Shown here: in pieces, positions 31,321-49,143 of the stretch | Numbering within the stretch: the first letter of the stretch is position 1 | Layout: the number at the start of each line of letters is the position of its first letter | Position numbers and translations under genes: made by a program | The notes under the pieces: model-generated | Told to the model about the DNA's origin: nothing | The model's input: only the letters and a program-made list of their open reading frames with translations | Database searches by the model: none | Source of the DNA: an uncultured Clostridia bacterium | Lineage (GTDB): Bacteria; Bacillota; Clostridia; Christensenellales; Borkfalkiaceae | Reading direction: 5' to 3' | DNA length: 49,143 nucleotides | NCBI GenBank assembly: GCA_947589085.1 | Contig: CANPZD010000008.1 | Span: 1-49,143 of the forward strand

Positions 31321-31349
31321 TTGACTTTTCGCATAAACTGGGATAAAAT
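31306..31349 (+). promoter_or_regulatory. Promoter of the prepilin operon with overlapping inverted repeat
   Basis: TTGACT (31321-31326), 17 bases, TAAAAT (31344-31349). An inverted repeat AAGACT (31306-31311) / AGTCTT (31317-31322) overlaps the -35 box and could be an operator; an A-run just upstream may act as UP element. Predicted leader about 100 bases, with a GCGGC/GCCGC hairpin (31429-31443) right before GGAGGT. Confidence 0.7.
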
Positions 31350-31454
31350 ATATTTTGTAGCAGATAAATAGTATAAAGCAGAAATGCTGATCGGTACCGC
31401 AAGAACGGGAGCGCATAGAACATTAAGAGCGGCAAACGGCCGCGGAGGTTTGAG

Positions 31455-34400
31455 ATGAAGTTCCTGAAAAAACTTAAAAACAGAGTAAAAAACAGACGGG
31501 GCAACACGCTTGTGGAAGTCCTGCTCGTTGTCGGGTTGATGACGATTTTGCTCGGGATCGCCGTACCCGATCTTATTTCCGAATCGAAAGAGATCAAGAT
31601 GACCGAAATGAACAGCAATGCCCGTGCGGTCGCAGTTGCGGTGCAGAGCAAACTTTACGGCATAAAAAACCGCGGAACCTCGATCGGCTCCGAATATCGG
31701 ACGTTGAATGAAACGGCGGCAGAAGTCAGCATTTCGACCGATGATGGCGGAAAAGACGTAAAATACGTGAGCAATTTCGGCGAAAAGGGCACGGCGGGGA
31801 AGGACTATCTCCTTTCGGGCGCAATCACCGACACCGATCTTTTGCAGAAAGGTAAGATCGTCGTTGTGTACGATCCCCTTACGGCGGATGTTCTCGAAGT
31901 TTTTTACGGGGAAAAGGAATTTCCTGTCGATGATATATTCCCCACGGCCAACGAAAGTTTTTTGAAAAACAACAATATCGGACTTTATCGCGGCGAGGGC
32001 TCGCCCGAACCCGAGCGCGCCATCTCGATTCCGCGGTTTTCACTCAGTGTAGGGGAGGAGAATGAGGAACGGTATCTTCAAATGCAGATGGAGGGGACTC
32101 CCGATCCATCGATCGCCACCTTGCCTTTGGGGCTGGAAATTTATATCCAGTTCCCCGATTTCGACGACAAGGAAAAATGGGATGAAATACTCGTCTATGC
32201 CGAGGGGATGTTTGATAGCGAATACAAAGTGAACTACGGAGATTCTATCGTATCCGATGATTCGGGGGAGAATCAATTAACGCTGGATAAGATAGCAAAC
32301 AACAACAAGATCATGCGTTTTATCATCGACAGTGCGGTCTTGGAAAAGAGCGCCTACGCGACGGACTATCTGAAACATAACAAACATCCCGAGATCGTTT
32401 CGGTGGCGAGCGCCCCCTTCTATCCGCGCGCGACGATCAACGATTGGATGATGCAATCGTCCAATCCCTACATCACCTATTGGTTCCGTCAGCATGCTAC
32501 CTATATAAATGAAAATACCGGAGGTCCGAAGGAAAGCGATCCCACGATGTCGCAGAAGCTATATGACCATATTGTTGCCCTCGATAATAACTATAAGTCA
32601 CAACATACGGCAACGGACTATATCCCCATTAACGGGACTTGCCGCGTCCGCATGGAGTTGCACGTATTGTCCGGCGATACTTGGACGGAGGAGAAGAACG
32701 GCGCGCGGATTCGGAAGTATGACGACGATACGTATGCTCCCGTCAATATCACGTCCGCGCTGCTGAGCCCTTATTTTAATCTGCTCGATCAAACCACCGG
32801 TCAGATCTCGCTCTCTTCCATGCGCGCGCTTTCCCATCTTTGGCAGGTGTTTGAGAGTGAAAATACGATCAAGACGGCGTGTCTCCGCGATGATATTAAC
32901 GGGGACAACTTCTACACACTGTTAAAGGGCCTGCGGCAAGCATTGTGGGATGAATTGAAGATGACGGGGGAAACGAAGGAGGACGAGAAGAAGCGCCAAG
33001 ATTTGTGGGGCGACTGGGCGGTCAACCAAGGGGCGAGCGTTAAGTCGTGCGATGGCAACAAGAAATTTAAGTTGGACGGAACAACGACGGACGGCGGCTC
33101 CCATAAGATTCAAAACATTATTTTTACCGGGCGGAACGGTGGCGATGCTTCTTCGGAGCCGGGAGGCTTGTTCGAATACGCAAACGGCTGTACCTTCACA
33201 AACATCGATATCGTCAACCCTGCCACATTGCGGAGAAATTACGACCCGACATTTCTCGAAACGAAAGATCACAGCATTACCGCCATCAACGAGTCGGAGC
33301 AGTGGGGCGGCGCTTCGGGTGCGTTCGTCGGCTTTGCCGTGAACTGCACCTTCAAAAATGTCCGCGCTTATCTCGATGATGCGCATCTCCCTCCCGCCCT
33401 CAATCTGTCGGGTCTTACAATCGACGGTTCCGTCGTGGGCGGGCTCGTCGGCGTGGCGATCGGCTCGGGGGGCAGAGAAACCACATTTACGAACTGCGCT
33501 GCGTCGGTTCGTGCCACGAATGGCACGCTCGACTCCGCGATGCGCGTCGTGTATGCGGGCGGGCTCGTCGGGATCGCGGCGGGAAATGTTACCATCTCGA
33601 GTTGTTACGCGGCAAGCCAGCTTTCGGGCTATTATTCGGGCGGGCTCGTCGGCGCTACCGTATCCGGACAGGGAAATGCGATTCCGTGGACGTATAAGGA
33701 CAGGGAGTGGGATTTAACGCCCCGCGAGCAGGGGTCCATTACGGACACACCGACGATTCAAAACAGTTTTGCGGCGGGGCAGATCACGCGGCAGGTGCGC
33801 GTCGGCGGCGGTCTCATTGCCGACGTTCAGGGCGCGCTCCCGCAGGAAAAAGTTCAAAATTGCTATTCCGCCGCTTGGTGGGAGGCGCTCGCTCCCGTTT
33901 CCTACGGCACCTTTAAGGGCGATAAGAAAAACTATTACGTCTATCAAACGCGATTCCCCATTCCCGTCACGGAGAACGTCGAGGCATGGTTTAAGTGTAC
34001 GGGCGATGTTCTCTCATTGAAAACAAATGAGGATGGCACAGATGTGGATGACGGCGTCGCCTGCACGGGCGGCGATCTGAAGTCGAAAACGGAATTTTCG
34101 GGTTGGACGGCGGAGGCGACAGCCACCCACCAATGGTCGTACAACGAGGGAAGTTTCGAATTGCACAAGATGTATTGGAAGGAGAAGGGCACGCCCGAGG
34201 CATATCCTTTCCCCATGCCGTCGGAGTACGTAAAACGCTACGGCGCCGAATTTTGGGGCGACTGGATCAAGACCTACGAAGAGAAACCGATGACGGCGGG
34301 CGGAACGCCTGCTGCTACGCCGTTCTCTTCCGAGTTTTTGGGGTATTATGCCTGTTACTATGACATACAAAGTGTGATGACCACGAGTAGCGGGCAGGTG

Positions 34401-35027
34401 AGATCGAGACAGGATTATTATGATTATTTGGAAAGGTATGCTGATGAGCGAGCGGGGGACTTCCTTTCTGGGTACCGATTCCAAATAAGAAATGGTGCTG
34501 CCGAGTTAAAACTGTTTAACGATTATCTGACAGGCGGCAGCTTGAATTATTGGTGGGCAAGGAATTCCGATCCCGACCGTCAAACCGAACCGTATATTAA
34601 CCCCGGCGCTCCCGCGGGCGTCGCAGGCACAACAAAGGTTGAGGCTTCTGGCGGAAAGTTTGTATTCACCGCGCCGAAATTTTACAACCCCGATTACGAC
34701 CCTGTCGGAGGATATAATCTTGAAGTTAAGGGCGCAGACGTCAACATGGATACTACCGTTATCCGCTTGGATTATTACGGCTTCTACTGCTACCCCCATC
34801 GTGGCACGTGGAATGATTCGATGTGGATAAAGTATTATATCATGCTGACGGATGACCCCATAGAAGGCGGCACTGCGAGGATAAATGAGACGAACACGAC
34901 TGTTGAGATGAATGAGGCAGTGTTCGAAGTGGCAATTCCGAACGTACAGATTACGCTGGAAGCAACGGGCGTTTCCCCGAAATGGAGTGATGGAAGGTTC
35001 TTTATATCGTCGGCGGTGGTTGAATAG
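31455..35027 (+). CDS. Giant type IV prepilin-like protein with GLUG-type repeats
   Basis: 1190 residues. The N-terminus is a class III prepilin signal: basic leader ending R-R-G16, then N-T-L-V-E21 (Glu at +5) and a hydrophobic helix to about residue 40. Ordinary pilins have 130-200 residues. Residues about 60-500 are a mixed region I do not recognise. Residues about 540-800 contain Gly-rich GLUG-like repeats ('SGAFVGFAVNCTFKNV', 'VVGGLVGVAIGSGG', 'AGGLVGIAAGNVTISSCYA', 'SGGLVGATVSGQG'), which form a beta-helix in surface adhesins. Residues 800-1190 are rich in Y, W and D. It probably sits at the pilus tip as an adhesin. GGAGGTTTGAG precedes ATG 31455. Confidence 0.88.
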   Translation: MKFLKKLKNRVKNRRGNTLVEVLLVVGLMTILLGIAVPDLISESKEIKMTEMNSNARAVAVAVQSKLYGIKNRGTSIGSEYRTLNETAAEVSISTDDGGKDVKYVSNFGEKGTAGKDYLLSGAITDTDLLQKGKIVVVYDPLTADVLEVFYGEKEFPVDDIFPTANESFLKNNNIGLYRGEGSPEPERAISIPRFSLSVGEENEERYLQMQMEGTPDPSIATLPLGLEIYIQFPDFDDKEKWDEILVYAEGMFDSEYKVNYGDSIVSDDSGENQLTLDKIANNNKIMRFIIDSAVLEKSAYATDYLKHNKHPEIVSVASAPFYPRATINDWMMQSSNPYITYWFRQHATYINENTGGPKESDPTMSQKLYDHIVALDNNYKSQHTATDYIPINGTCRVRMELHVLSGDTWTEEKNGARIRKYDDDTYAPVNITSALLSPYFNLLDQTTGQISLSSMRALSHLWQVFESENTIKTACLRDDINGDNFYTLLKGLRQALWDELKMTGETKEDEKKRQDLWGDWAVNQGASVKSCDGNKKFKLDGTTTDGGSHKIQNIIFTGRNGGDASSEPGGLFEYANGCTFTNIDIVNPATLRRNYDPTFLETKDHSITAINESEQWGGASGAFVGFAVNCTFKNVRAYLDDAHLPPALNLSGLTIDGSVVGGLVGVAIGSGGRETTFTNCAASVRATNGTLDSAMRVVYAGGLVGIAAGNVTISSCYAASQLSGYYSGGLVGATVSGQGNAIPWTYKDREWDLTPREQGSITDTPTIQNSFAAGQITRQVRVGGGLIADVQGALPQEKVQNCYSAAWWEALAPVSYGTFKGDKKNYYVYQTRFPIPVTENVEAWFKCTGDVLSLKTNEDGTDVDDGVACTGGDLKSKTEFSGWTAEATATHQWSYNEGSFELHKMYWKEKGTPEAYPFPMPSEYVKRYGAEFWGDWIKTYEEKPMTAGGTPAATPFSSEFLGYYACYYDIQSVMTTSSGQVRSRQDYYDYLERYADERAGDFLSGYRFQIRNGAAELKLFNDYLTGGSLNYWWARNSDPDRQTEPYINPGAPAGVAGTTKVEASGGKFVFTAPKFYNPDYDPVGGYNLEVKGADVNMDTTVIRLDYYGFYCYPHRGTWNDSMWIKYYIMLTDDPIEGGTARINETNTTVEMNEAVFEVAIPNVQITLEATGVSPKWSDGRFFISSAVVE

Positions 35028-35038
35028 GGGAATAAACT

Positions 35039-35755
35039 ATGATGAAACATTGTGTTTGTAAAAAGTTTTCTCTCCGCCGCGGGGCGTCCGTGCTGATCGC
35101 TCTGCTTGTCTTTTTCCTCGCCGCGCTCGCGGGGACGATCGCTCTTACGATGGCGGCGTCCAACGCGGGCAGATACACGCACGAAACAGACGATCAGCAA
35201 TCTTATCTCTCCGTTGCTTCGGCGGCAAAACTCATTCTGAGCAAGTTGGAAAATTACGAAGTTTATCTTAGTACGGAAGATTCTAAGCGTCCGTCCGAAA
35301 ATCCTACTGCGGACAGAGTTAAAATGACCTGCCGTCAAAAAGGCACGCAGAATGTTGCGGCAAACGAGATGTTTTTTGCCGATAAGCAGTTTCAAGACAA
35401 TCTCGTTGCACTTACTTTTCCTCAAGACAAACGTGATCCCAATTACAAATATAAGGATGTTCGCTTCCGCTTGACCGTAAAGGGCGTCCCTTCCGCGGGA
35501 AGCGTATTTGTGCTGTTGGATATGCTCAATTTCACGTTTAAGTTTCAGCTCTGGTCCGAAGAGGGAAATGCCCGGAACTATCAAATGACGATGTTCGTCG
35601 TGCTTACGCCCATACAGACGGATTATACCTCGTACCCCACGGAAGGAGTGGCGCAATATTGGTACAGAACCATGGAGTTTGATACGCAAAAGGTGAGATT
35701 CGAAGTCGAGAGGGACAAGGACGATTCGACGCCCACAGAAGGAGAAGGCGCATGA
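35039..35755 (+). CDS. PilX-like minor pilin
   Basis: 238 residues. A basic leader ends R-R-G and is followed by A-S-V-L-I-A-L-L-V and a long hydrophobic helix, the pattern of PilX-type minor pilins, which lack the Glu at +5. The rest is soluble with no family that I recognise. AGGGGA precedes ATG 35039. It lies 11 bases after the giant pilin and overlaps the next pilin by 4 bases, so it belongs to the same operon and pilus. Confidence 0.75.
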   Translation: MMKHCVCKKFSLRRGASVLIALLVFFLAALAGTIALTMAASNAGRYTHETDDQQSYLSVASAAKLILSKLENYEVYLSTEDSKRPSENPTADRVKMTCRQKGTQNVAANEMFFADKQFQDNLVALTFPQDKRDPNYKYKDVRFRLTVKGVPSAGSVFVLLDMLNFTFKFQLWSEEGNARNYQMTMFVVLTPIQTDYTSYPTEGVAQYWYRTMEFDTQKVRFEVERDKDDSTPTEGEGA

Positions 35756-36090
35756 AAAACATGATCAAAAAATTGAAATCGAAGAGCGGCGAAACGCTCA
35801 TGGAAATTCTCGTGGCAATTCTCATTCTCGCGCTTTCCGCAGGGCTGTTTGCTTCCATGTATACGGCTTCGGCTAATATTAACAGATCCGCGCGCGAAAA
35901 GGACGAAAAAATTTATGACGCGGTGGGAGAGCTCGAGGACTTCATCGGCTCGACAAGCGGGGGCACGGAAGGAACGGTGACGTATACCCCCCTTGACAGC
36001 GAAGGCGAACCCCAGTCCGGGGAGGGCAATGTTAAGGTCCAAGTCTTCACCCAAGACGGAATGACGGCATATACGGGGGGGACGCCATGA
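35752..36090 (+). CDS. Type IV prepilin, small
   Basis: 112 residues. Leader MKNMIKKLKSKSG, cleaved after Gly13, then E-T-L-M-E (Glu at +5) and a hydrophobic helix to about residue 35. The soluble part is only about 65 residues and rich in G, T and E, so it is likely a minor pilin. Overlaps its neighbours on both sides (ATGA). GGAGAAGG lies just upstream. Confidence 0.85.
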   Translation: MKNMIKKLKSKSGETLMEILVAILILALSAGLFASMYTASANINRSAREKDEKIYDAVGELEDFIGSTSGGTEGTVTYTPLDSEGEPQSGEGNVKVQVFTQDGMTAYTGGTP

Positions 36091-36620
36091 AAAAATTACG
36101 CAACAAGAAGGGCTTTACGCTTACGGAAATGTTGATCTCCGTGTTGCTTCTCGGATTTGTGTCGATCATGGTGACGGTTATGACGTCGGCTATCCTCAAC
36201 TCTACCGTCACAATGCGGGAGGTCGCGCAGGCCGAGATTCTGGGCAGCGAGGCGCTCGAAAACATGCAGAGCGAACTGCGCTTCGGCACGAACGTCGTCG
36301 TGGCGGCGGACGGCAAAGCCGTCTCGTATACCCGCGAGGACACCGATTACACGCTCGATCGCAACGATGACGGGAAGATCATCATCAAGACCAAGGATAC
36401 GCCGGAAGGGACGGAACTCTTTGCGGGCGTATCATACGGGAATCTGAAAGTTTCCGAGTTAATGTTTTCGCTGGGCGCGGGCGCGGACGAGGGTCCCAAC
36501 GGATCGGTCGTGATCTCCGTTTCGATCGCTTACGGGAAGAATGTTCTCTGGAAAGGCGACGTTTCCGTGCGGCCGCTGAATGGCAGCGCAACCGCGGCGT
36601 ATTCGGACGGCGCAGATTAA
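36087..36620 (+). CDS. Type IV prepilin, PilW/GspJ-like
   Basis: 177 residues. Leader MKKLRNKKG, then F-T-L-T-E (Glu at +5), the most canonical signal of the four, and a hydrophobic helix to about residue 35. The globular part resembles minor pilins of the PilW/GspJ type ('NSTVTMREVAQAEILGSEALENM'). Last gene of the prepilin operon; a terminator follows at once. No prepilin peptidase is in the window. Confidence 0.87.
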   Translation: MKKLRNKKGFTLTEMLISVLLLGFVSIMVTVMTSAILNSTVTMREVAQAEILGSEALENMQSELRFGTNVVVAADGKAVSYTREDTDYTLDRNDDGKIIIKTKDTPEGTELFAGVSYGNLKVSELMFSLGAGADEGPNGSVVISVSIAYGKNVLWKGDVSVRPLNGSATAAYSDGAD

Positions 36621-36641
36621 AAAATTCGGTTTCGATCATCG

Positions 36642-36670
36642 GCAACGGAAAAAAATCCGTTGCTTTTTTA
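36642..36670 (+). terminator. Terminator of the prepilin operon
   Basis: 8-bp stem GCAACGGA (36642-36649) / TCCGTTGC (36656-36663), A6 loop, then TTTTTTAT. Confidence 0.93.
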
Positions 36671-36780: not shown

Positions 36781-38955
36781 GTGAAGAACAAGACGATCCG
36801 TTTTTTGGTCGTTCCGATCGTAATCATCGCGCTTCTCTGCATTGCGGTTTTGTCCCTCGTGGCTTATCTCATGAACATGCGGGGCGCAGACGCCGTCGGA
36901 AAGCTCGGTTCTCTCTACATGGCGGAAACGAGCCGGCAGTCCGCCGTACATTTCGGCACGACGTTCGAACTTCGGCTCGCGCAGGTGAGCGCCCTTGCCG
37001 ACGCCGTTCCTCCCGAGCGCGAGATGGACGATGAAACGCGCCGCGTGCTGCTCAATCATCAAGCCCGTCTGCGCGGGTTCGATCACCTTGCGCTTTGCGC
37101 GGCAGACGGCACAATGGAGATGCTGTACGGAAGCATGCTTACGGTAGACGATCCGCAGGCGTTCCTCGCTTCTCTTCTCGGCGGCACGGAGACGATGACG
37201 AGCGGAAAAGATCATTACGGCGACAGTTTTGTCGTGATGGGCGTTCCGGCCGCCTATACGATGTCGAACGGGCAAAAGAGCGTTGCGCTCGTTGCCGCGC
37301 TGCCCATTTCGTACATCCGCGATACGCTCGCGGCGGACGCCGAAAGCGCTTCTACTTACTATTTTATCATCGATTCCGCGGGGCGGATCATCATTCACGA
37401 CGGAACCGAAAGCGATGACAAGAATTACTTCCAGAGGGTCATCGACCGTTACGGCGAAACCCGCGTGGACGGCGCGAAAGTGCCGAAAGAGGATTATATA
37501 ACAGCGCTTCAAACGTCGATCGACGCGGGGGAGATCTTTTCGGCGGAGTTTACCCTCGACGGGCAGCGCCGGTTCGTTTATGAGACGCCGCTGCCTTCTT
37601 CTTCGTGGTATCTGCTTTTGTTCTTGCCCTACGGACCGATCAATACGACGGTGAACGCCCTCGGCACAACTTGGATCTGGGCGGCCGCTTTGAGCTGTCT
37701 GTTCATTCTCGTCGCGCTGCTTCTGGTGTTTGCATTTTATTCCCGTCTCACGCGGCGGCACATGCGCGAGCTGGAAGAAATGCGCTGCGCGGCGGAACAT
37801 GCCAACCGCGCCAAGAGCGATTTTCTCTCCAACATGAGCCACGATATCCGAACGCCCATGAACGGGATCATCGGCATGACGGCCATCGCGAGCGCCAATC
37901 TCGGCAACAGAGAGCAAGTGAAGAATTGTCTCGAAAAGATTTCGGCTTCCGGCCGTCATCTCCTCGGACTTATCAACGATATTCTCGATATGTCGCGCAT
38001 CGAGAGCGGGAAACTCGAACTGCATCTCGAATCGATGTCCCTGCACGAAACGCTCGAAGGCGTCGTCACGATCATTCAACCGCAAGTTCAAACAAAGCGG
38101 CAGAGCTTTGAAACGGATTATTCCGATCTTCCCTGCGAATTTATCCTCTGCGACAGCGTGCGGCTCAATCAGATCCTTCTCAATCTTCTCGGCAACGCCG
38201 TCAAATTTACGCCCGACGGGGGCAGGATCTCCCTCTCCTGCAGCGAGGAAGATTCGCCCGAGGGAGAAGGGTTTGTCCGCGTGCGGTTCCGCGTGAAAGA
38301 TACGGGCATCGGCATGAGCGAAGAATTCCAGAAAAAAGTGTTTGAGGCGTTTGCCCGCGAGGACGACGGAAGAGTGCGGCAGATCGAAGGTTCCGGACTG
38401 GGCATGGCGATCACCAAATATCTCGTAGACGCCATGCACGGAACGATCGGCCTTACCAGCCGCCCCGGCAAGGGCACCGAATTTTTTCTCACGTTCGACT
38501 TCGAGCGCACGGAGGGCAAGCGCGCTCCGGTGGCGGAGAAGATCGAATACGATTTCGGCGGAAGGCGCGTGCTTCTTGCAGAGGACAACGAACTCAACCG
38601 CGAGATCGCCGTGGAGCTGCTGGCCGAAGTGGGACTTACCGTCGAAGCGACGGAAAACGGCAAACTGTGCGCGGAACGCTTCGCCGCCTCCGAAGAGGGG
38701 TATTACGACGCCATCTTCATGGATATCCGCATGCCCGTGATGAACGGTTACGAGGCGACGGAGACCATTCGGAAAATGTCCCGCCCCGACGCGTCGACGA
38801 TCCCCATCATCGCCATGAGCGCAGACGCGTTTGCAGACGATGTGTCGCGCTGTCTTGCATGCGGCATGAACGCGCATACGGCAAAGCCCATCGATATGAC
38901 GGCCGTCTGCAAGCTTCTCACAAAATATTTCGTCAGGGGGAAGCAGGAATCATGA
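36781..38955 (+). CDS. Hybrid sensor histidine kinase (Cache-like sensor, HisKA, HATPase, receiver)
   Basis: 724 residues from GTG 36781 behind AAGGAGGG. Transmembrane segments at about 7-30 and 298-322 enclose a 265-residue extracytoplasmic domain of probable double-Cache type. HisKA follows with phospho-acceptor His354 in '[10 protein letters not shown]'; HATPase_c has '[11 protein letters not shown]', 'DTGIGM' and 'GSGLGMAI'. A receiver at about 590-715 has phospho-acceptor Asp648 in '[11 protein letters not shown]'. A hybrid kinase needs an Hpt partner, and one is encoded at 44668. It overlaps the solute-binding protein gene by 4 bases, suggesting joint ligand sensing. Confidence 0.94.
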
Positions 38956-40229
38956 AAAAGATCGCTCCCATACTTGTTTCGTTCGCGCTTCTTCTTCCCG
39001 TTGCGGCATGCGCGGCGCCGCCTGCGGACGGGGGCGGCGAAGGCAGAACGGAGACGGAAATTTCCCTGTGGACGTATCCCGTCGGAGAATGGGGGAACGC
39101 CAACTCCGTTGCGCCTCTCATCAACGCGTTCCGCCGCGTGCATCCCGAAATTTCCATCAAGATCAAGATCGTCGACTATGCCACGGGAGACAGCGAGGTG
39201 GAGAAGGCGATCGCGGAAGGAACCCCGCCCGATCTTATTCTCGAAGGCCCCGAACGGCTTGTCGCAAATTGGGGCGCGCGGGATCTCATGGTCTCCCTCA
39301 ACGATCTTTGGGATAGCGAGGCAACGGACGGCGTTTACGAGAACGTCGAAAAGGCCTGCCGCAAAGACGAAACATATTATATCTATCCGCTCTGCATGAC
39401 AACGCATTGCATGGCGATCAACCGCGATCTCTTCGAGGAAGCGAATGCTTGGCAATATATCGACGAAGAGCATCATACATGGACGACGGAGGGATTTCAG
39501 CGCGCCGTCGCCGCGATCGACGCCTATAACGAGGCGAACGGCTTGAAAAGAGACGTTGCCGCGGTCTATTGCAGCGGACAGGGCGGCGACCAGGGGACGC
39601 GGGCGCTTGTCAACAATCTGTACGGCGGAACGTTTGCGGATAAAACGGGCTACACCGTAGACAGCGAAGAAAACATCCGTGCGCTCCGGCTTCTGCGCGA
39701 CATGAAGGGCATCCGTTTCGACGCAGAGATGAACGGCGCAGAAGAGCAGAACGCCTTTTGCAAAGGCGAACTTGCCATGGCGTTCTGCTGGAACGTGGCG
39801 GCGGAAGTGAATCAATCGATCGCGCATCCCGATTTTGCCTCGTCCATCTTCCCCATGGCGTTTCCCGCGGAGGAGGGGAAGGATCCCTCCCTGCAGGGCG
39901 GGATCTGGGGGTTCGGCGTGTTCCAAAGCGGCGATAAGGCGCGCGTTTCCGCGGCAAAGGAATTTATCCGCTTTCTCGGCGAAGAGGACTATACGAGAGC
40001 GGTCACGACGTCGTCGTATCTGCCCGTGCGCAAGCTCGCGCGCGATCCGTATGAGAATGACGCTCTGATGAACGAGTACGATATTTTCAGTCAATATCTC
40101 GGCGAATATTACCAGATCACGCCGGGTTGGGCGGACGCCCGAACGGCGTGGTGGACCCTGTTGCAGGCCGTCGGAGAGGGGGCGGATATCGCGCAGGCGA
40201 TCAAAAATTTCCCTCAAAAACAACCATAA
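38952..40229 (+). CDS. Extracellular solute-binding lipoprotein, family 1
   Basis: 425 residues from ATG 38952. The signal peptide ends in lipobox V-A-A-C with Cys20. The mature part resembles family 1 (sugar-type) binding proteins: '[21 protein letters not shown]' near residue 58, '[12 protein letters not shown]', and '[14 protein letters not shown]'. No ABC permease genes are next to it. Because it is translationally coupled to the sensor kinase, I infer that it presents ligand to the kinase's outer domain rather than serving import alone. The ligand is unknown. Confidence 0.9.
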
Positions 40230-40244
40230 CATTGCTGTTTGTCT

Positions 40245-40650: not shown

Positions 40651-42609
40651 ATGTCGGATTTATGTGCGGTCAAAATTTTCGGGGTGAATCTCGACTGGAC
40701 TGTCTCCACGACGGTTCTCGTGCTGATGTTGGCGCAGATCGCCCTTGTTGCGGTGGCGGTTGTGGCCTTCATCCTCATCACCGTGCGCAAGCATGCCCTG
40801 TCCAAGAGAAAACAAAACATTCTCGTTACCCACGCTGCGGAGCCGGATAAGGATCGTTCCATCGTCGGCATCTCGCTCGATACGGTGGTCGTCAAACGCA
40901 AATTTACGGTGGGCGAGGCGTTCGATTATTCCGGGCTGATCGTCACCGCAAGTTACAACAGCGAACCTTCGACGGAGAACGTGATCGATTTCACCGTCGA
41001 AACGCCCGATATGGATCGTCCGGGCAAACCGACCGTTGTCGTCCATTACGGCGGTTTTTCCGCATATTACACCATCGAAGTCGTCGCAACGTCGGAAGAG
41101 AGGACTTGCGTAGGCATTTCGCTCGACGTTACCGCCGTGCGCAGGCTGTTTGCCGCGGGCGAGACGTTCGATTGCGGCGGCCTTGTCGTGACCGCAAACT
41201 ATAACGGCGCGCCTTTAACGGAAAACGTAGTCGATTTCACCGTCGAAACCCCCGAAATGAGCTTTCCGGGCAGCCGGAACGTTTTGGTCCGTTACGGCGG
41301 TTTTTCCGCGTATTACACCATCGAGATCGCCGCAAATGCGGAGCAGCGGACGTGCGTGGGCATTTCGCTCGACGTTACCGCCGTGCGCAAACAGTTCGCC
41401 GAGGGCGAACCGTTCGATTGCGCCGGCCTCGTCGTTGTCGCGCATTACGACCGCGAACCGCTTGCCGAAGAGGTATTCGACTATACCGTGGAAAGTCCTG
41501 CCACGGATGAGGAGGGCGTAAAACAGGTCGTCATCCGTCACGGGGATTTCGTGGAGTACTACAATATCGAAGTTACTCCCGTCTGCAAGGAGCGTACGCT
41601 CGTCGGGATCGATCTCGATCTCGAAGCCGTCCGTGCAGACTTCTTCGTCGGCGAGACGTTCGATTGCGCCGGTCTCGGCGTTGTCGCGCGCTACGACGCG
41701 GAACCCTATGCCGAACGCGTGACGGACTTCACCGTCGAGGCGCCCGATCTCACCGAGAAGGGCATGAAGAACGTCGTCGTGCGTTATGGCGATTTTGTGC
41801 AGACTTATCCCGTGTTCGTCGCCGAGGAACGCGCGCTCGTGGGTATCACGCTCGATACTTCCGTCGTGCGCCGCGAGTTTGCGGCGGGTGAGACGTTCAA
41901 TGCCGTCGGATTGATCGTTACGGCGGACTATGACGCGGAACCGTACAGCGAGGAACTTTCCGATTATGAAGTGGAAGCGCCCGATCTTTCCGAAGAGGGC
42001 GAAAAGGAAGTCCGCGTGAGCTATCTCGGCAAAACGGCTTCTTATAGCGTTACCGTCGTACGTCCCGCGGAAACGGCGGAGGAGACGGCGGCGGTCGCGC
42101 TGGACGAAAGTCTGATCCGTTACGATAAAAGTTTTACCGCCCGTCTCATTCAGACGAGCGACGAAAACAAACGTTGGTATACGCTCATCAAGAACGAATT
42201 GCTTTCCTACAAAAAAGTGCACGACCGCATGAGCTGGAAACGCGAAACGTATAAGGCGGCGGGCGGCTGCGTTGCGAAGATCAGCTTCCGCGGCAACACG
42301 CTCTGTCTCTTCCTTCCGCTCGATCCGGCCGAATTCGTCGAATCGCGCTACAAGGTGGAGGACGATTCTGTCAACAAGTCGAGCGAGGATACGCCCTGCC
42401 TCTTCCGGATCAAGAACGACAAGCGTTTGCGCCTTTCGTTCGATCTCATTGCGCGGGTCATGGAAGAGCGCGGACTTGCCCGCGTCGACCATGAGGAAGT
42501 GGACTACGCAGAACCTTATCAGGATACCGAAGCGCTGATCGAAAAGGGCCTTGTCCGCCGTAAAGTCACTACGAAAGAAGAAGAGGACGCAGTATTCACG
42601 AGAAAGTGA
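40651..42609 (+). CDS. Membrane protein with five Big_3-like Ig repeats and a conserved C-terminal domain
   Basis: 652 residues from ATG 40651 behind AAAGGAG. One transmembrane segment (about 20-45) is followed by a basic stretch V-R-K-H-A-L-S-K-R-K. Five tandem Ig-like repeats of 77-82 residues (69-470) each run 'VGISLD...GE.FD..GL.V.A.Y' and resemble the Big_3 fold. Residues about 488-640 form a separate basic domain ('YDKSFTARLIQ', 'KNELLSYKKV', 'RMSWKRETY', 'LCLFLPLDPAEF') that I have seen in other clostridial proteins but cannot name. By the positive-inside rule the Ig repeats and the C-terminal domain would be cytoplasmic, which is unusual. It is first gene of the c-di-GMP/pilus motor cluster. 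Confidence 0.85.
   Translation: MSDLCAVKIFGVNLDWTVSTTVLVLMLAQIALVAVAVVAFILITVRKHALSKRKQNILVTHAAEPDKDRSIVGISLDTVVVKRKFTVGEAFDYSGLIVTASYNSEPSTENVIDFTVETPDMDRPGKPTVVVHYGGFSAYYTIEVVATSEERTCVGISLDVTAVRRLFAAGETFDCGGLVVTANYNGAPLTENVVDFTVETPEMSFPGSRNVLVRYGGFSAYYTIEIAANAEQRTCVGISLDVTAVRKQFAEGEPFDCAGLVVVAHYDREPLAEEVFDYTVESPATDEEGVKQVVIRHGDFVEYYNIEVTPVCKERTLVGIDLDLEAVRADFFVGETFDCAGLGVVARYDAEPYAERVTDFTVEAPDLTEKGMKNVVVRYGDFVQTYPVFVAEERALVGITLDTSVVRREFAAGETFNAVGLIVTADYDAEPYSEELSDYEVEAPDLSEEGEKEVRVSYLGKTASYSVTVVRPAETAEETAAVALDESLIRYDKSFTARLIQTSDENKRWYTLIKNELLSYKKVHDRMSWKRETYKAAGGCVAKISFRGNTLCLFLPLDPAEFVESRYKVEDDSVNKSSEDTPCLFRIKNDKRLRLSFDLIARVMEERGLARVDHEEVDYAEPYQDTEALIEKGLVRRKVTTKEEEDAVFTRK
40855..42060 (+). 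repeat. Five tandem Ig-domain repeats of about 230-246 bases
   Basis: Repeat units begin at residues 69, 151, 233, 315 and 394 of the encoded protein. Repeats 1-3 are exactly 82 residues, and repeats 2 and 3 share nearly identical stretches (V-G-I-S-L-D-V-T-A-V-R), which implies recent duplication; 4 and 5 have diverged and are shorter. Confidence 0.88.
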
Positions 42610-42630: not shown

Positions 42631-44664
42631 ATGCGGCAAGAGCAAAGCAAAGAAAAAATACTCATTGTTGATGATTCCGAGATGAACCGCTCGATCCTTG
42701 CGGATATGTTGGCGGATGAGTTCGGCGTAACGGAAGCCGAGGACGGTGAAGCCGCACTTGCGATCCTTGCGGAGCGCGGAAGCGAATTTTCTCTTGTTCT
42801 CCTCGACATCGTGATGCCGAAAAAAGACGGATTCGAAGTGCTCGGCGAGATGAACCGTACCCGCCTCATTGAGGATCTTCCCGTCATCATGGTTTCCGCG
42901 GAGACGGCTCCCGCGCAGATCGAACGCGCGTACGAGCTGGGCGCGACGGACTTCATCATGCGACCTTTCGACGCATCCATCGTGCACCGCCGCGTGCTCA
43001 ATACGATTTTCCTCTACACCAAACAGAGAAAACTGATCGATATCATCGAATCGCAGATCAACGAGAAGGAACAGAACAGCAGCATGATGGTGGACATTCT
43101 GAGCCACATTGTCGAGTTCCGGAACGGCGAGAGCGGGTTGCATATTTTACATGTGCGCACCATTACCGATTTCCTTCTGCGCAAGCTTGTCCGCAAGACG
43201 GACCGCTATCCTGTTTCGGAAGGCGACATTCCGATCATCGCCATGGCGTCTGCCCTGCACGATATCGGCAAGATCGGCATCGACGACAAGATCCTCAACA
43301 AACCGGGCAAACTCACCGATGAAGAGTATGCCGTCATGAAAACGCACAGCATGATCGGCGCGAAGATGCTCGACGGCCTCTACGCGCATAAAGATAATCC
43401 TCTCGTGAAGTACGCATACGAGATCTGCCGCTGGCATCATGAGCGGTGGGACGGAAGGGGCTATCCCGACGGTTTGAAGGGAGACGAGATCCCCATTTCG
43501 GCGCAGATCGTATCTCTTGCCGACGTATACGACGCGCTGACGAGCGAGCGGGTGTATAAGCCGCCGTTTTCGCCGGAGACGGCCAAAGAGATGATCCTTA
43601 CAGGCAAGTGCGGAACGTTCAATCCGCTGCTTCTCGAATGCCTTTCCGACGAATTCGATAACATCCGCGAGGCGCTGTCCCAGAACGTCAGCGAAAACGC
43701 GGTCCGCAGGGAGATCCGCAATTATGCCGATGCGGCGCTGTATTCCAAGGGGGTGCGGGCGTCGGATCGCACGTTGCGGCTGCTCGATTACGAGCGCATG
43801 AAGTACAACTTTTTTGCCGATCTCACCGAGGAGATCCAATTCGAATACAACGTTTCCGAAAATATTCTCAAACTATCCGCAAGGGGTGCGAAGAAATTCG
43901 GCGTTCCGCAGGAGATCGTCGATCCGGCAAACGAGCCGCGATTCAAGACGCAGCTCGGGGAAAACTGGTTCGGGAATCTTTCGAAATATCTTTCCGAAAT
44001 GACGCCCGCGGCGCCCGAATTCCGTCACGAGTGCGAACTCCGCGTCGGCGGCGAACTCCGCTGGTACGACGTCATCATGCGCGTCACGTGGACGGACGAC
44101 GCGTCGCCGACCATCGAGAGCGTCATCGGGAAGTTGGTCGATATCCACGATACGCACATCGCATTCGACGAATTGCGTGAAAAATCCATCCGCGATCCTC
44201 TCACGGGGCTTTTGAACCGCGAGGGCGCGGGGGAAGACCTTGCCGAAAAACTATCGAAATTCCCCGAACATAAATATGCCGTTGCCGTGTTCGATATCGA
44301 CTCTTTCAAGAGCGCGAACGACGTATACGGGCACCTGTTCGGCGACAAAGTATTGCGCGAAGTTTCCGAACGGCTCATTCACAGCACGCGCGTTCATGAT
44401 TTGTGCGCGCGCATCGGCGGCGACGAATTTCTCATTGTATTCGAATATGATACGGATATCCATCCGATTATCGCGCGTGTATTCAAGTCGCTGTGCGGAA
44501 AGGTAGACGCGTTCGATCTCACCGTGAGCATGGGCGTTGTCGAGATGACGGAAAAAGAGCAGGAATTCGAGGAACTTTTCCGCAAAGCGGACGTCGCGCT
44601 GTACGTATCCAAAAACGCGGGCAAGGCGGCGTACCGATTCTATGAATCTTCCATGGAGGAATAG
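42631..44664 (+). CDS. Response regulator with REC, HD-GYP, PAS-like and GGDEF domains
   Basis: 677 residues. REC (1-125) has phospho-acceptor Asp59 in 'LLDIVMPKKDG'. HD-GYP (about 150-345) has H210-D-I-G-K, H269-H-E and the G-R-G-Y-P loop ending at 279, so c-di-GMP hydrolysis looks possible. Residues about 390-510 look PAS-like. GGDEF (about 520-677) has the intact I-G-G-D-E-F at 595-600, and an inhibitory site R587-V-H-D590 exactly five residues before the motif. Both synthesis and breakdown of c-di-GMP are therefore predicted. It starts behind GGAGAC, 21 bases after the Ig-repeat gene and 3 before the Hpt gene. Confidence 0.95.
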   Translation: MRQEQSKEKILIVDDSEMNRSILADMLADEFGVTEAEDGEAALAILAERGSEFSLVLLDIVMPKKDGFEVLGEMNRTRLIEDLPVIMVSAETAPAQIERAYELGATDFIMRPFDASIVHRRVLNTIFLYTKQRKLIDIIESQINEKEQNSSMMVDILSHIVEFRNGESGLHILHVRTITDFLLRKLVRKTDRYPVSEGDIPIIAMASALHDIGKIGIDDKILNKPGKLTDEEYAVMKTHSMIGAKMLDGLYAHKDNPLVKYAYEICRWHHERWDGRGYPDGLKGDEIPISAQIVSLADVYDALTSERVYKPPFSPETAKEMILTGKCGTFNPLLLECLSDEFDNIREALSQNVSENAVRREIRNYADAALYSKGVRASDRTLRLLDYERMKYNFFADLTEEIQFEYNVSENILKLSARGAKKFGVPQEIVDPANEPRFKTQLGENWFGNLSKYLSEMTPAAPEFRHECELRVGGELRWYDVIMRVTWTDDASPTIESVIGKLVDIHDTHIAFDELREKSIRDPLTGLLNREGAGEDLAEKLSKFPEHKYAVAVFDIDSFKSANDVYGHLFGDKVLREVSERLIHSTRVHDLCARIGGDEFLIVFEYDTDIHPIIARVFKSLCGKVDAFDLTVSMGVVEMTEKEQEFEELFRKADVALYVSKNAGKAAYRFYESSMEE

Positions 44665-44667: not shown

Positions 44668-45030
44668 ATGACGATCCGTGAATGTTATTCCATGCTCAAC
44701 GGGGATTACGACGATGTGATCGGCAGATTGCGGAGCGAGCGTCTGGTGCAGAAATTCTTATTGAAATTTCTCGCCGACGGGAGCTACGAACTTCTTTTCC
44801 GTTCTCTCGGAGAGGGAAACGCGCAAGAGGCCTTCCGCGCGGCGCATACCATCAAGGGGATGTGCCAGAACTTGAGTTTCACGGCGCTTGAACGTTCTGC
44901 GTCGGCGCTCACCGAAACGCTGCGGGGAGGGGAGCTTGCGGGATACGAACCTCATCTCTCCGCCGTAAAAGAAGATTACGAACGCACGGTTGCTGCGATC
45001 AAGGCATACGCAGAAAACCCGGAAAGTTGA
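44668..45030 (+). CDS. Hpt (histidine phosphotransfer) protein
   Basis: 120 residues, a single four-helix Hpt domain. Phospho-acceptor His60 lies in 'AAHTIKGMCQNLSF', a textbook Hpt motif. It would carry phosphate from the hybrid kinase receiver (Asp648) to the REC domain of the adjacent c-di-GMP enzyme (Asp59). TGGAGGAATAG precedes ATG 44668, 3 bases after the previous stop. Confidence 0.93.
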   Translation: MTIRECYSMLNGDYDDVIGRLRSERLVQKFLLKFLADGSYELLFRSLGEGNAQEAFRAAHTIKGMCQNLSFTALERSASALTETLRGGELAGYEPHLSAVKEDYERTVAAIKAYAENPES

Positions 45031-45110
45031 TCGTCCGGCTTTCGGCCCGCCCTGCGGGCAGGTTGCGGGTCCCGGAATAAAGAGCGCGGTTTTCCGCGAG
45101 AGGAATGCAT

Positions 45111-46814
45111 ATGGAATATTTTCGGTTAGGCGATATTCTCATCAACAACGGCGCCATCACGCAGGAACAGCTGGATAAGGCGCTTGCCCTGCAAAAGTCG
45201 AGGCACGAACGTCTCGGCACCATTCTGATTGACGAGGGTATTATCAACGAGCAGCTTCTCATCGAGACGCTGGAGGTTCAGCTCGGGATCGATTTCATCG
45301 ATCTCTCCAAAGTGCGGATCCCCATCGAACTTGCGTCTCTCGTGCCGAGAAGCATTGCGCGCCGTCACGGCGTTGTGCCCGTCCGTCTCAACAAAGACGA
45401 GCTTACGCTTGCGATGAGCGACCCGCTCAATTTCGTTGCGCTCGAAGAAGTCCGCACTGCGACGCGCAAGCGTATTCTTCCCAAGATCGCGACGACGGCG
45501 GCCGTGAACAAGGCGATCGCGACGCTGTACGGCAACGAGGGGGTTGCCCGCGCCATCGAAGAGATGCGCGGGGATTCGGCCGCGCGCGAGACGGCTTCGC
45601 AGAACCGCCCGCAGACGGAAGAAGTTGCGGAAGAGAGCCAGCAGCAATCGGCGCCCACCGTCCGTCTTGTCAATTCCATTCTGGAGCGCGCGTCCGTCGA
45701 ACGGGCGAGCGACGTGCATATCGAGCCTCGTGTAGACGAAGTGGTCGTCCGCATGCGGATCGACGGCAAACTGCGCACGGTGCTCACCGTTCCCGACGAA
45801 TTGAAACGCACCGTCATATCCCGACTGAAAATCATGGGCGGGATGGATATCACGGAATCGCGCGTTCCGCAGGACGGGCGCGCCAACGTGCTCGTAAAGG
45901 GGCACAATATCGATCTCAGAATGTCCACGCTCCCCGCCATGTACGGCGAAAAAGTCGTGATTCGGTTGCTCGACAAGTCCGTGCAGCTGCTCGACGCGGC
46001 TGCGATCGGGTTGAACGGGGAGAATCTCGAAAAATACAACCGGCTTCTCGGATCCGCGCACGGAATGATTCTGATCGTGGGACCCACCGGTTCCGGCAAA
46101 TCGTCTACCATGTATACGATGATCCGTTCGCTCAACACCGACGAAGTCAATCTTGTCACGCTTGAAGATCCCGTCGAGTACGATATCGACGGCGTCAATC
46201 AGGTGCAGATCAATGAAAAGACGGGTATGACGTTTGCGGAAGGTCTGCGCGCCATTCTCCGTCAGGACCCCGACATTATCGCCGTCGGCGAGATCCGCGA
46301 CAGCGAAACGGCGGAGATCGCCATTCGTTCGGCGATCACGGGGCATCTCGTGCTTTCCACGGTGCACACGGGCGACGCGCTCTCCGCGATCGACCGTCTT
46401 GTGGATATCGACGTCGCGCCCTATCTCATTGCGGACGCGCTCAACGGCGTGATCTCGCAGCGGCTCGTGCGGTGCATTTGTCCCCATTGCAAGGAGGAAT
46501 ATGTTCCCTCGCCCGAAACGCTGGCCGCGCTCGGTTGCGATCCCGCGGACGATACGATCCGTTTCTACCGCGGAAAGGGCTGCCCGCACTGTTATCATAC
46601 GGGTTATTCCGGGCGCACGGGCGTATTCGAGATCCTGATTCTCGACAAGGAATTCAAGCGCGCCGTGGCGGAGGGCCGTCACACGGCGGAGCTTGGGGAA
46701 TATGTGAAGCAGGGCAAATTCACGCCGCTCATCGACGATTGCCGCAGACTCGTGCTTGCGGGGGTCACGTCGGCGGATGAAGCGCTCAGCGTGCTCAACG
46801 CGTCGGTCAAGTAA
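45111..46814 (+). CDS. pilB: Type IV pilus assembly ATPase PilB
   Basis: 567 residues. ATG 45111 is chosen over ATG 45105 because GAGAGGA (45098-45104) abuts the latter. The N-terminus has two MshEN motifs of 24 residues, 5-28 and 34-57, each beginning R-L-G and ending L-x-x-Q, the pattern known to bind c-di-GMP in MshE. The GspE ATPase core has Walker A G324-P-T-G-S-G-K-S-S332, 'TLEDPVEYD', 'LRQDPDIIAVGEIRD', and a tetra-Cys zinc site (C-P-H-C twice). It powers pilus extension. A GC hairpin without T-run lies in the gap before it. Confidence 0.96.
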   Translation: MEYFRLGDILINNGAITQEQLDKALALQKSRHERLGTILIDEGIINEQLLIETLEVQLGIDFIDLSKVRIPIELASLVPRSIARRHGVVPVRLNKDELTLAMSDPLNFVALEEVRTATRKRILPKIATTAAVNKAIATLYGNEGVARAIEEMRGDSAARETASQNRPQTEEVAEESQQQSAPTVRLVNSILERASVERASDVHIEPRVDEVVVRMRIDGKLRTVLTVPDELKRTVISRLKIMGGMDITESRVPQDGRANVLVKGHNIDLRMSTLPAMYGEKVVIRLLDKSVQLLDAAAIGLNGENLEKYNRLLGSAHGMILIVGPTGSGKSSTMYTMIRSLNTDEVNLVTLEDPVEYDIDGVNQVQINEKTGMTFAEGLRAILRQDPDIIAVGEIRDSETAEIAIRSAITGHLVLSTVHTGDALSAIDRLVDIDVAPYLIADALNGVISQRLVRCICPHCKEEYVPSPETLAALGCDPADDTIRFYRGKGCPHCYHTGYSGRTGVFEILILDKEFKRAVAEGRHTAELGEYVKQGKFTPLIDDCRRLVLAGVTSADEALSVLNASVK

Positions 46815-46853: not shown

Positions 46854-47903
46854 ATGCCCATGGAACTCAACAGTTTGATTTCGAAAGCGAAAGAAATGCG
46901 CGCTTCGGATATTCATCTCGTGCGCAATCTTCCTCCGCGCATACGCGTCGACGGGGAATTGCAGAACTTCGGCGCGCCGCTCACGGCTGCGGATTGCGAA
47001 TTTTACGCGCGCCAGATGGCGGGCGCGGAATATCGGAAGATCGAAAAGACGGGCGAACTCGACCTTGCGATCACCTTTGCGGGGAACATTCGCTGCCGTA
47101 TCAATTTATTCCGTCAGCAGGGCGCGGTGTCGTCGGCGATCCGGATCCTTTCCGACAAGATCCCCGAACTCGACTCTTTGGGACTTCCGCCCATGGTGCA
47201 GACGCTTCCCGCGCTCGGCCGCGGCATTGTGCTTGTTACGGGCGAGACGGGATCGGGCAAATCGACCACGCTTGCGGCGATGCTCAACCGCATTAATCAT
47301 ACGCAGAATGCGCACATTATCACATTGGAAGATCCTATCGAATATATTTACGAACCCGATAAATGCGCGATCAATCAGCGTGAGATCGGAACGGATACCG
47401 AGAGTTACGCCACGGGTCTGCGCGCGATCCTGCGCGAAGATCCCGATGTGATCCTCATCGGCGAAATGCGCGATCTCGACACCATTGAAACGGCGCTCAC
47501 GGCGGCGGAGACGGGGCACCTCGTGTTTGCGACGCTGCACACGAATTCCGCACCCGATTCGATCGACCGTATCGTCGACGTATTTCCCGAAATGCGGCAG
47601 AAGCAGATCCGCATGCAGCTTTCGACCACGCTGATGGCAGTGCTTTCGCAGCAGCTCTTGCCCCGCAAGAACGGGGGGAGAGTGGCGGCGTGCGAACTGA
47701 TGATGGTAACGCCAGCCATTCGCAATCTCATCCGCGAGGGCAAGACCCCGCAGATCGCGAGTTCGATGGCGACGTCGGCGGCGGAAGGTTCGGTGACGAT
47801 GGATAATTCGCTGATTGCGCTCTATCGCAAACAAGTGATTTCCGCCGAAATGGCGAAATCCGCCGCGCATGACGCGGAATACGTTCGCAAGAACGTGTTC
47901 TGA
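46854..47903 (+). CDS. pilT: Type IV pilus retraction ATPase PilT
   Basis: 349 residues, usual length. Seen: 'ASDIHLV' near residue 17, Walker A 'GETGSGKST', 'IITLEDPIEYIYE', 'LREDPDVILIGEMRD', 'TGHLVFATLHTNSA' and the retraction signature 'AIRNLIREGKTPQI' near the C-terminus. It disassembles pili and drives twitching motility. AAGGAGAATGCAGCT precedes ATG 46854 (a second ATG follows 6 bases later). It sits between pilB and pilC in one operon. Confidence 0.97.
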   Translation: MPMELNSLISKAKEMRASDIHLVRNLPPRIRVDGELQNFGAPLTAADCEFYARQMAGAEYRKIEKTGELDLAITFAGNIRCRINLFRQQGAVSSAIRILSDKIPELDSLGLPPMVQTLPALGRGIVLVTGETGSGKSTTLAAMLNRINHTQNAHIITLEDPIEYIYEPDKCAINQREIGTDTESYATGLRAILREDPDVILIGEMRDLDTIETALTAAETGHLVFATLHTNSAPDSIDRIVDVFPEMRQKQIRMQLSTTLMAVLSQQLLPRKNGGRVAACELMMVTPAIRNLIREGKTPQIASSMATSAAEGSVTMDNSLIALYRKQVISAEMAKSAAHDAEYVRKNVF

Positions 47904-47943
47904 TCGGAATCATTCCGCGAAGCAATCATAAAAGGAGGGATAA

Positions 47944-49143
47944 ATGAAGACGTTCAAGTATCGCGCGATTGCGCAGGACGGTACCGCCGTCAACGGCGTG
48001 ATCGAGGCGTACGACGAATTCGAAGCGGTCAACGAGATCCGCAAATCGTACGACGTCGTCGAATTTATCAAACCCGTCCGCAAGGAGCGGCGGATCAATA
48101 TCAACATCAACGAGCCGCTCTGGGTCAGCAACAAGACGCTTGCGCTCACCGCGAATCAGTTTTTCATCATGCTGAAAGCGGGTCTTTCGATGACGCGGAC
48201 CATAGAGCTGATCGCCGATCAGTGCAGCGATAAGCTGATGAAGCGGTATCTTCGTGCGAGCGCGGAAGACGTGGCGGCCGGTTATTCGCTTGCGGCGAGT
48301 CTCGAAAAGAACGGGAAGAAGATCCCCGCGGTATTCATCGAAACGGTACGTGCGGGGGAGGAATCCGGTACGCTTGAACAGTCGTTCCAAAGCCTCGAAG
48401 TCTATTATTCCCGCGCCCACAAAACGAAGAAAAAGGTCAAGTCTGCGCTCACCTACCCGATCATTGTCTTGCTCATCGCGATCGTGGTGATCGCGGTGGT
48501 CATGGTCGTGCTTGTGCCGCGCATGACGGAAACGTTGCAGTCTTTCGGGACGGAACTTCCCGTCGTCACGAAGATCCTGATCGCCATTTCCGACTTTTTC
48601 AAAAATTGGTGGTGGATCGTACTCATTGTGATCGCGGCGGTCATTCTCGGGCTGTATTTTTACGGAAAGACGGAAAAGGGCAAGATGTCGCTCTCGAAGC
48701 TTCGCATGAAGATGCCCGTGATCGGGAAGATCACCCGTTTCAATGCGGCGGCGCAGGTGGCCAACACGCTTGCAACGCTGCTGGCGGCAGGTTTGCCCGT
48801 AACGAGGGCGCTCGACATTGTGAGCCGCGTCGTGGATATGCGCTGCGTGGGGAAGGAACTCAACGAAGCCATCGTAAAACTCGAAGGCGGCATGTCGCTC
48901 GGCGAGGCGCTCAAAGATTCCCAATGGCTGCCCGCCATGCTCATTGAAATGATCACGGTGGGAGAGTCCTCCGGTATGCTTGAAGAGACGCTTCGCACCA
49001 TAGGATTGTATTATTCCGAAGAGGCGACGTCTGCGTCCGATGCGGCGCTCGGCCTTATGGAGCCTATCATCACGGTGGTACTCGGCGTAGTGGTCGGATT
49101 CATCGTCATTGCGATCTATGTGCCCATGTTCACGATGTCCTCG
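47944..49143 (+). CDS. pilC: Type IV pilus inner-membrane platform protein PilC (cut by window end)
   Basis: The first 400 residues are present. Two T2SSF domains (about 65-190 and 270-395) each contain a membrane segment, with another at about 205-235. 'NQFFIMLKAGLSMTRTIEL' and 'TLATLLAAGLPVTRALDIV' are the repeated family motif. The sequence ends in 'IAIYVPMFTM', typical of the last residues, so only a few codons are missing. Start ATG 47944 follows AAAAGGAGGG. It links the PilB/PilT motors to the pilus base. Confidence 0.96.
   Translation, partial: MKTFKYRAIAQDGTAVNGVIEAYDEFEAVNEIRKSYDVVEFIKPVRKERRINININEPLWVSNKTLALTANQFFIMLKAGLSMTRTIELIADQCSDKLMKRYLRASAEDVAAGYSLAASLEKNGKKIPAVFIETVRAGEESGTLEQSFQSLEVYYSRAHKTKKKVKSALTYPIIVLLIAIVVIAVVMVVLVPRMTETLQSFGTELPVVTKILIAISDFFKNWWWIVLIVIAAVILGLYFYGKTEKGKMSLSKLRMKMPVIGKITRFNAAAQVANTLATLLAAGLPVTRALDIVSRVVDMRCVGKELNEAIVKLEGGMSLGEALKDSQWLPAMLIEMITVGESSGMLEETLRTIGLYYSEEATSASDAALGLMEPIITVVLGVVVGFIVIAIYVPMFTMSS

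Follow-up and report, generated by a model that had tools for sequence, protein, structure and literature searches.

It has long been asked how a single diffusible messenger keeps its many outputs free of cross-talk, and the species in which this is usually studied possess numerous enzymes for cyclic di-GMP (c-di-GMP). Here we analyse a type IV pilus locus that may represent the limiting case reached by evolution, a natural minimal network with one maker, one recognised reader and one phosphate shuttle. It lies on the + strand, from position 31455 to the end of a contig of 49,143 nucleotides (CANPZD010000008.1; contig C8, here called the window) from an uncultured Clostridia bacterium of the Borkfalkiaceae (GCA_947589085.1), whose draft genome comprises 1.38 Mb in 28 contigs and is 96% complete. 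An earlier note, made from the letters of the window, had described a self-contained module leading from a kinase coupled to a binding lipoprotein through a phosphorelay and c-di-GMP to the pilus, and every gene that it named is found where it was placed. In order these encode four prepilin-like proteins, a hybrid kinase (HHK1), a solute-binding lipoprotein (SBP1), a Big_3 (Ig-repeat) protein, a REC-HD-GYP-linker-GGDEF regulator (RHG), a histidine phosphotransfer (Hpt) protein, PilB, PilT and PilC (Table 1). We put at about two in three the probability that this pilus locus has a circuit of its own, in which kinases would act through Hpt and RHG on c-di-GMP, and c-di-GMP on PilB, with the messenger effectively private to the pilus.

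Components of c-di-GMP signalling in the genome

Pfam searches of the window genome returned one Hpt protein, one GGDEF protein (RHG) and one MshEN protein (PilB, 75.6 bits), with no match to PilZ. As the searches revealed no further GGDEF, Hpt, MshEN or PilZ protein, the messenger would be effectively private to the pilus, the circuit closing on one maker and one reader. Scanning the window and seven other loci revealed no c-di-GMP riboswitch at the gathering score, and a PilZ protein (sought in the genome) or a local riboswitch (sought in the scanned stretches) was discarded as the reader. A span of ∼27 kb, the window together with the beginning of contig C6, holds maker, recognised reader, shuttle and two of the three hybrid kinases, while contig C9 carries the third kinase.

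The genome's three HisKA kinases (HHK1, HHK3 and HHK4 in the same searches) are all hybrids, and its eight receiver domains are distributed over six proteins: the three hybrid kinases, RHG, a NarL-type regulator and a Spo0A-like protein. The NarL-type regulator is encoded directly behind its own HisKA_3 kinase. As a second Hpt target the Spo0A-like protein is unlikely, its serine aligning with the acceptor aspartate of a solved response regulator. Both regulators thus appear to be poor Hpt targets, and by elimination of other Hpt proteins and receivers the hybrid kinases would converge on one Hpt protein and one unpaired receiver, leaving the relay a single plain target, RHG. This elimination is our strongest argument for the relay wiring. 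In the locus set, a Spo0A-like protein at L144:3585-4334 has serine at the expected phospho-acceptor aspartate.

The phospho-acceptors named in the earlier note (His354 and Asp648 of HHK1, His60 of Hpt, Asp59 of RHG) are numbered correctly, and the His-Asp-His-Asp residues are conserved across hybrid kinase, Hpt and RHG. Its statement that the four relay steps occur once each holds for the window and fails for the genome, with its three hybrid kinases. His60 was kept in 107/107 Hpt rows, repeats included. The catalytic and phosphorylation residues of RHG were intact in 23/23 PilB-linked proteins, including the HD, GYP, GGDEF and I-site residues, so that RHG is predicted to be bifunctional towards c-di-GMP. 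PilB has the c-di-GMP motifs that had been claimed for it, two of 24 residues with a 5-residue spacer, position 11 of motif I being Ala instead of L/V/I. Binding of c-di-GMP by MshEN motifs is described in passages of PMC11731258 and PMC11656802.

From the protein sequences we infer the following course of ligand sensing, phosphate flow and control. Extracellular ligands, probably sugars on lipoproteins of the SBP1 and SBP2 type, would act on HHK1, HHK3 and HHK4. Phosphate would pass from the kinase histidine to the kinase receiver, then to His60 of the single Hpt protein and on to Asp59 in the RHG receiver, where phosphorylation would shift the enzyme between c-di-GMP synthesis (GGDEF) and breakdown (HD-GYP); as to the sign of control, the receiver would mainly switch the neighbouring HD-GYP domain. 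The MshEN domain of PilB is predicted to bind c-di-GMP, to read its otherwise unshared level and thereby to set pilus extension.

Co-occurrence of RHG and the pilus ATPase in relatives

We examined 101 genomes of the same genus by Pfam domain searches. GGDEF exceeded the cut-off in 20 of them, always as a single copy (a match in G237 fell below the cut-off and is not counted). MshEN was present in 25/101 and fell into two sorts by score: high-scoring matches (≥66 bits) in 19 genomes, and a lower-scoring group of seven matches (39-57 bits) spread over G195 and six genomes outside the 19. The high-scoring sort occurred in 19/20 GGDEF-positive genomes and in 0/81 others (Fisher's exact test 1.2e-19, which is no true probability, as the genomes are related). 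The one GGDEF-positive genome without it is G270 (81% complete, 460 contigs), whose 3.8-kb RHG contig ends at the genes. GGDEF and high-scoring MshEN were at most 4 kb apart on one contig in 17 of the 19 genomes; in G266 MshEN is split by contig ends, with one piece on the RHG contig and a 25-bit piece forming the other half, and in G248 the genes are on different contigs. Hpt was detected in 23/101 genomes, comprising the 20 with GGDEF plus G215, G219 and G269. Among the HisKA matches listed, frames of at least 700 aa came from 23 genomes. Of these, 22 are Hpt-positive and one, G244 (63% complete), is Hpt-negative; the Hpt-positive G270 shows no such frame.

The PilB motifs follow the same division. 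Each of the 29 places where the search of the family had matched MshEN was inspected, with frames <400 aa excluded from the motif reading. Both motifs were complete in 26/27 RHG-linked PilB rows (21/22 distinct), the remaining one, at L009, having one strict motif. They were absent in 22/22 PilBs from loci without RHG, genome-wide absence of GGDEF having been checked for the same-genus members only. G195 carries both MshEN sorts and provides a control within one genome. On this evidence PilB appears to retain its c-di-GMP motifs only beside RHG. The family also has pilus loci of another PilB-PilC kind (L012-L033), with a PilB lacking c-di-GMP motifs.

The earlier note would have given way had kinase, Hpt and regulator co-occurred randomly with pil genes. 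For regulator and Hpt the association with this pilus type is not random: GGDEF and MshEN coincide in 19/20 against 0/81 genomes, and PilB motifs are seen only beside RHG. A random neighbourhood is disfavoured by this genus-wide co-occurrence together with recurring gene order. Since close relatives have or lack maker, shuttle, reader and nearly all hybrid kinases as a set, c-di-GMP may here be the private wire of one pilus locus instead of a global signal, the locus possibly transferable and the Big_3 protein perhaps holding the complex at the pilus base; we advance this broader picture tentatively, at a little under even odds.

A wider scan took one genome per species, and the 80 loci named here are the best 80 of 575 confirmed. 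The earlier label 'clostridial' suits the window, the nearest named relatives among these best 80 of 575 being metagenome-assembled genomes labelled Clostridia or Oscillospiraceae with 'Lapin' in their isolate names, which we take to mean rabbit. In a tree of 89 distinct RHGs (quick method), the 23 rows labelled PilB-linked formed one group requiring one change (SH-aLRT 100), and L047 also falls inside this clade. Among its neighbours in the tree are loci with a different pil gene order. One of them, L083, encodes PilC, prepilins, PilD, PilM, two genes at the PilN and PilO places, a large prepilin and minor prepilins, followed by RHG, Hpt, HHK2, HHK3 and SBP2. L073, L088 and L105 have the order prepilins-RHG-Hpt-HHK2. 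Ahead of their minor prepilins these three loci also have very large frames of 1544 to 2741 aa, which start at the edge of the locus; in L088 and L105 these frames are similar to the large prepilin of L083.

The most serious alternative is that RHG, Hpt and the hybrid kinases form a general c-di-GMP relay merely situated near pil genes, with the messenger acting on other targets. A search for MshEN in 32 genomes behind the wider loci bears on this. Among RHGs nearest the pilus clade, MshEN was present in 6/6 genomes with pil genes near RHG (L073, L083, L088, L105, L115 and L092, the link in L092 being PilD ∼6 kb upstream) versus 0/5 genomes in which 4-10 kb upstream of RHG contained no pil genes (L057, L058, L065, L109 and L111). 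It was found in 4/6 genomes with RHG near a contig end and in 3/15 of the other clade. The 16 MshEN places in the 32 genomes comprised nine with at least one strict motif, three with none and four that the script left unread.

Several observations weigh against a private circuit, and some of them are what a general relay would lead one to expect. RHG, Hpt and hybrid kinase are common in Oscillospiraceae and relatives without nearby pil genes; by the script's rule RHG lacked pil genes in 61/89 distinct rows, some of which are merely short contigs, and the triad is therefore not pilus-specific by origin. In genus g8 of the same family, 10/11 Hpt-positive genomes have no MshEN. Within the genus, G215, G219 and G269 have Hpt with no GGDEF found. 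L115 combines an L083-like pil part with RHG, and neither Hpt nor a hybrid kinase was detected in the ∼10 kb behind it. One clade holds all the PilB-linked RHGs, so a small number of evolutionary events may account for the co-occurrence. Around 4% of the window genome is possibly missing, which bears on the uniqueness of GGDEF, Hpt, MshEN and PilZ; these four families make up the closed-circuit test, and the genome-wide searches did not extend to EAL, to further HD-GYP proteins or to c-di-GMP riboswitches. Finally, 19 of the 26 loci in the gene-order set described below were fetched through RHG or GGDEF, which favours seeing RHG there. Against a general relay stand the lack of PilZ and the single MshEN in the genome, the lack of a riboswitch in the window and seven loci, the 6/6 versus 0/5 distribution, and the way in which RHG tracks the intact PilB motif. 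On balance we regard it as unlikely.

Kinase inputs and known systems

The earlier note had made HHK1 and SBP1 the input of a linear chain and proposed conserved gene order as a check. The gene-order set contained 26 distinct loci, the window included, 7 reached through MshEN and 19 through GGDEF or RHG. Order was conserved for part of the chain only: RHG and Hpt are adjacent in 26/26 loci and PilB shares their contig in 24/26 (the contigs of L047 and L139 end before PilB, and the pilus link of L139 is not shown), against 9/26 for HHK1 and 8/26 for SBP1. Such counts of upstream genes are lower bounds, some contigs being short. The Big_3 protein occurs in 18/26 loci, as does HHK2, a second hybrid kinase between Hpt and PilB; the window is in the minority without HHK2. 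Because the order recurs in relatives it goes beyond chance, and the counts argue for an RHG-Hpt-PilB core with exchangeable kinases.

HHK1, with HisKA, HATPase and REC domains and a weak dCache match, overlaps SBP1 at its stop codon (ATGA) just upstream of the core in the window, as one would expect if this pair were the dedicated input and alone signalled through Hpt and RHG to PilB. The window genome nevertheless has two further hybrid kinases and no second Hpt protein, and among relatives HHK1 and SBP1 are less frequent than HHK2, if their lower-bound counts are so read. A dedicated linear input is accordingly improbable, more so than a general relay; HHK1 and SBP1 are better regarded as accessory, and the wiring looks like a hub, with three hybrid kinases to one Hpt protein and exchangeable kinases around the core.

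The dCache_1 match in the HHK1 sensor domain scored 25.8 bits, below the cut-off of 45, and a profile of that domain found no convincing match among PDB sequences. SBP1 is closest among solved structures to sugar-binding proteins. As the 12 locus genes scanned include no permease, it is more likely to be part of a sensor than of a transporter. On contig C6, past additional pil genes, comes a second lipoprotein and kinase pair, SBP2 and HHK3. The listed HHK3 frame begins too early, with a tRNA overlapping its first codons. In HHK4 the N terminus carries fused solute-binding domains. A hybrid kinase at L142:4352-7654 carries two SBP_bac_3 matches at the N terminus, an arrangement that we take to be EvgS/BvgS-like.

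The target of the relay within RHG is suggested by L150 and L152 (genomes G215 and G269), where Hpt lies beside an RHG-like protein of REC-HD-GYP size (505-514 aa). These would be enzymes of the c-di-GMP-degrading type, and neither genome yielded a GGDEF protein. Because such proteins persist beside Hpt without a GGDEF match, the relay may primarily control the HD-GYP part of RHG. That it controls a phosphodiesterase only, with GGDEF regulatory and the amount of PilB as output in place of c-di-GMP binding, is the least probable of the alternatives: G215 and G269 are what it would predict, yet GGDEF and I-site are intact in 23/23 PilB-linked RHGs and the PilB motifs are kept.

Precedents exist for every component and link of the circuit, among them genomes with a single cyclase, convergence of kinases on one Hpt protein and a PilB that binds c-di-GMP. 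Transfer from hybrid kinase through Hpt to a receiver, and GGDEF and HD-GYP chemistry, belong to known families. Vibrio LuxPQ-LuxU combines a binding protein, a hybrid kinase and Hpt, as here, its output LuxO being a transcription factor; here the match to the LuxQ model is confined to the kinase part, and likeness of the sensor domain is not established. In the HptB cascade of Pseudomonas aeruginosa several hybrid kinases converge on one Hpt protein linked to a diguanylate cyclase, as we propose; it differs in having a further regulatory branch and many c-di-GMP enzymes. Xanthomonas PdeK-PdeR signalling is reportedly connected with c-di-GMP and pilus extension. The species of Vibrio cholerae MshE, Clostridium perfringens PilB2 and Myxococcus PilB have many c-di-GMP enzymes, and Borrelia burgdorferi Rrp1 has a receiver domain and a partner hybrid kinase, Hk1.

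The HptB cascade with HsbD is the subject of PMC5085249. MshE, PilB2 and Myxococcus PilB share with the PilB here an N-terminal domain in which two 24-residue motifs stand in tandem, five residues apart (PMC11731258 and PMC11656802, the latter counting 24 predicted c-di-GMP enzymes in Myxococcus). Unlike in those systems, the only GGDEF protein found here shares PilB's gene string. Rrp1 is, like RHG, the single diguanylate cyclase of its genome; its output includes glycerol metabolism according to PMC3128128, whereas RHG adds an HD-GYP domain, service by Hpt and a pilus locus. Signalling through Xanthomonas PilB-PilZ-FimX is tied to c-di-GMP and pilus extension, as proposed here, but PMC10333796 has FimX as the receptor and a PilB that binds no c-di-GMP. 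In Clostridioides difficile, a clostridium as here, c-di-GMP controls pili by way of a riboswitch that precedes the pilus operon (PMC11656802); in the stretches scanned here there was none. Searches of an open-access library turned up no pilus locus in which phosphorelay, bifunctional enzyme and reader constitute the recognised c-di-GMP machinery of the genome.

A path from external ligand to pilus motor in so few parts could be rebuilt and measured, with presence and absence in close relatives as natural controls. In the related gut organism Ruminococcus albus, pili mediate adhesion to cellulose (a passage of PMC6916266); by analogy we would guess that a sugar-sensing pilus switch makes ecological sense.

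Pilus genes, layout and the Big_3 protein

Table 1. Features of the pilus locus in the window (aa, amino acids)
Feature	Position	Strand	Length	Remarks
Promoter-like site	31321..31349	+		TTGACT, 17 nt, TAAAAT; before prepilin genes; weak
Large modular prepilin	31455..35027	+	1190 aa	N_methyl 20.5 bits, cut-off 21.2
Prepilin-like protein	35039..35755	+	238 aa	PilX position; similar protein at same place in relatives
Minor prepilin	35752..36090	+	112 aa	N_methyl 20.0 bits, cut-off 21.2
Minor prepilin	36087..36620	+	177 aa	N_methyl 29.3 bits
Terminator-like stem	36641..36664	+		After prepilin genes; weak alone
HHK1 hybrid kinase	36781..38955	+	724 aa	His354, Asp648; two membrane segments
SBP1 lipoprotein	38952..40229	+	425 aa	Sugar-type solute-binding; lipobox read by eye
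Terminator-like stem	40244..40269	+		After SBP1; weak alone
Big_3 repeat protein	40651..42609	+		Membrane-anchored; conserved C-terminal domain
RHG	42631..44664	+	677 aa	REC-HD-GYP-linker-GGDEF; Asp59
Hpt protein	44668..45030	+	120 aa	His60
PilB extension ATPase	45105..46814	+		Tandem MshEN c-di-GMP motifs
PilT retraction ATPase	46854..47903	+
PilC	47944..49143	+		Reading frame open at contig end

The locus belongs to a type IV pilus, with PilB, PilT, PilC and prepilins in the window and PilD and PilM over their cut-offs on contig C6. That contig starts with a prepilin, the prepilin peptidase PilD, PilM and a PilO-like protein (19.3 bits against a cut-off of 27.8; PilN is assigned by position in a relative only), followed on the opposite strand by SBP2 and HHK3. 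As pil genes precede SBP2 and HHK3 in five relatives (G111, G236, G258, G231 and G099, each with two adjoining or overlapping stretches per contig), C6 very probably follows C8.

Pfam N_methyl matched three of the four prepilin-like proteins, two of them slightly under the family cut-off; the protein at 35039 had no Pfam match. The largest, whose N terminus is weakly matched in relatives, is possibly a tip adhesin. Terminator-like stems at 36641 and 40244, together with small gaps between genes, would tentatively suggest three transcription units: the prepilins, HHK1-SBP1, and Big_3-RHG-Hpt-PilB-PilT-PilC. The scan found 25 such stems against 25.0 expected from shuffles, and 16 promoter-like sites against a shuffled mean of 10.1, which makes the promoter call a weak one.

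Charges around the single membrane segment of the Big_3 protein place its repeats in the cytoplasm in the window and in 13/16 other loci (L008, L049 and L136 are unclear). Going by hydropathy and charge, the Ig-like repeats may therefore face inwards, which disfavours a surface adhesin and hints at an inner scaffold. The protein has nine cysteines after the membrane segment; exported SBP1 has seven, making the cysteine count uninformative. Its conserved C-terminal domain (42106-42606), often in two copies, had no Pfam or NCBIfam match and no convincing match among PDB sequences. It is also present in two loci that showed no pil genes, L043 and L108.

A tRNA gene lies at 30947-31020, ∼430 bases upstream of the first prepilin gene. 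A shared insertion site was considered and set aside: a search of 27 related loci for seven genes from the upstream flank and two from the downstream flank gave only two isolated matches. Among relatives the locus thus seems to occupy different genomic sites, though the flanks covered are short and several of the 27 loci come from the same genomes.

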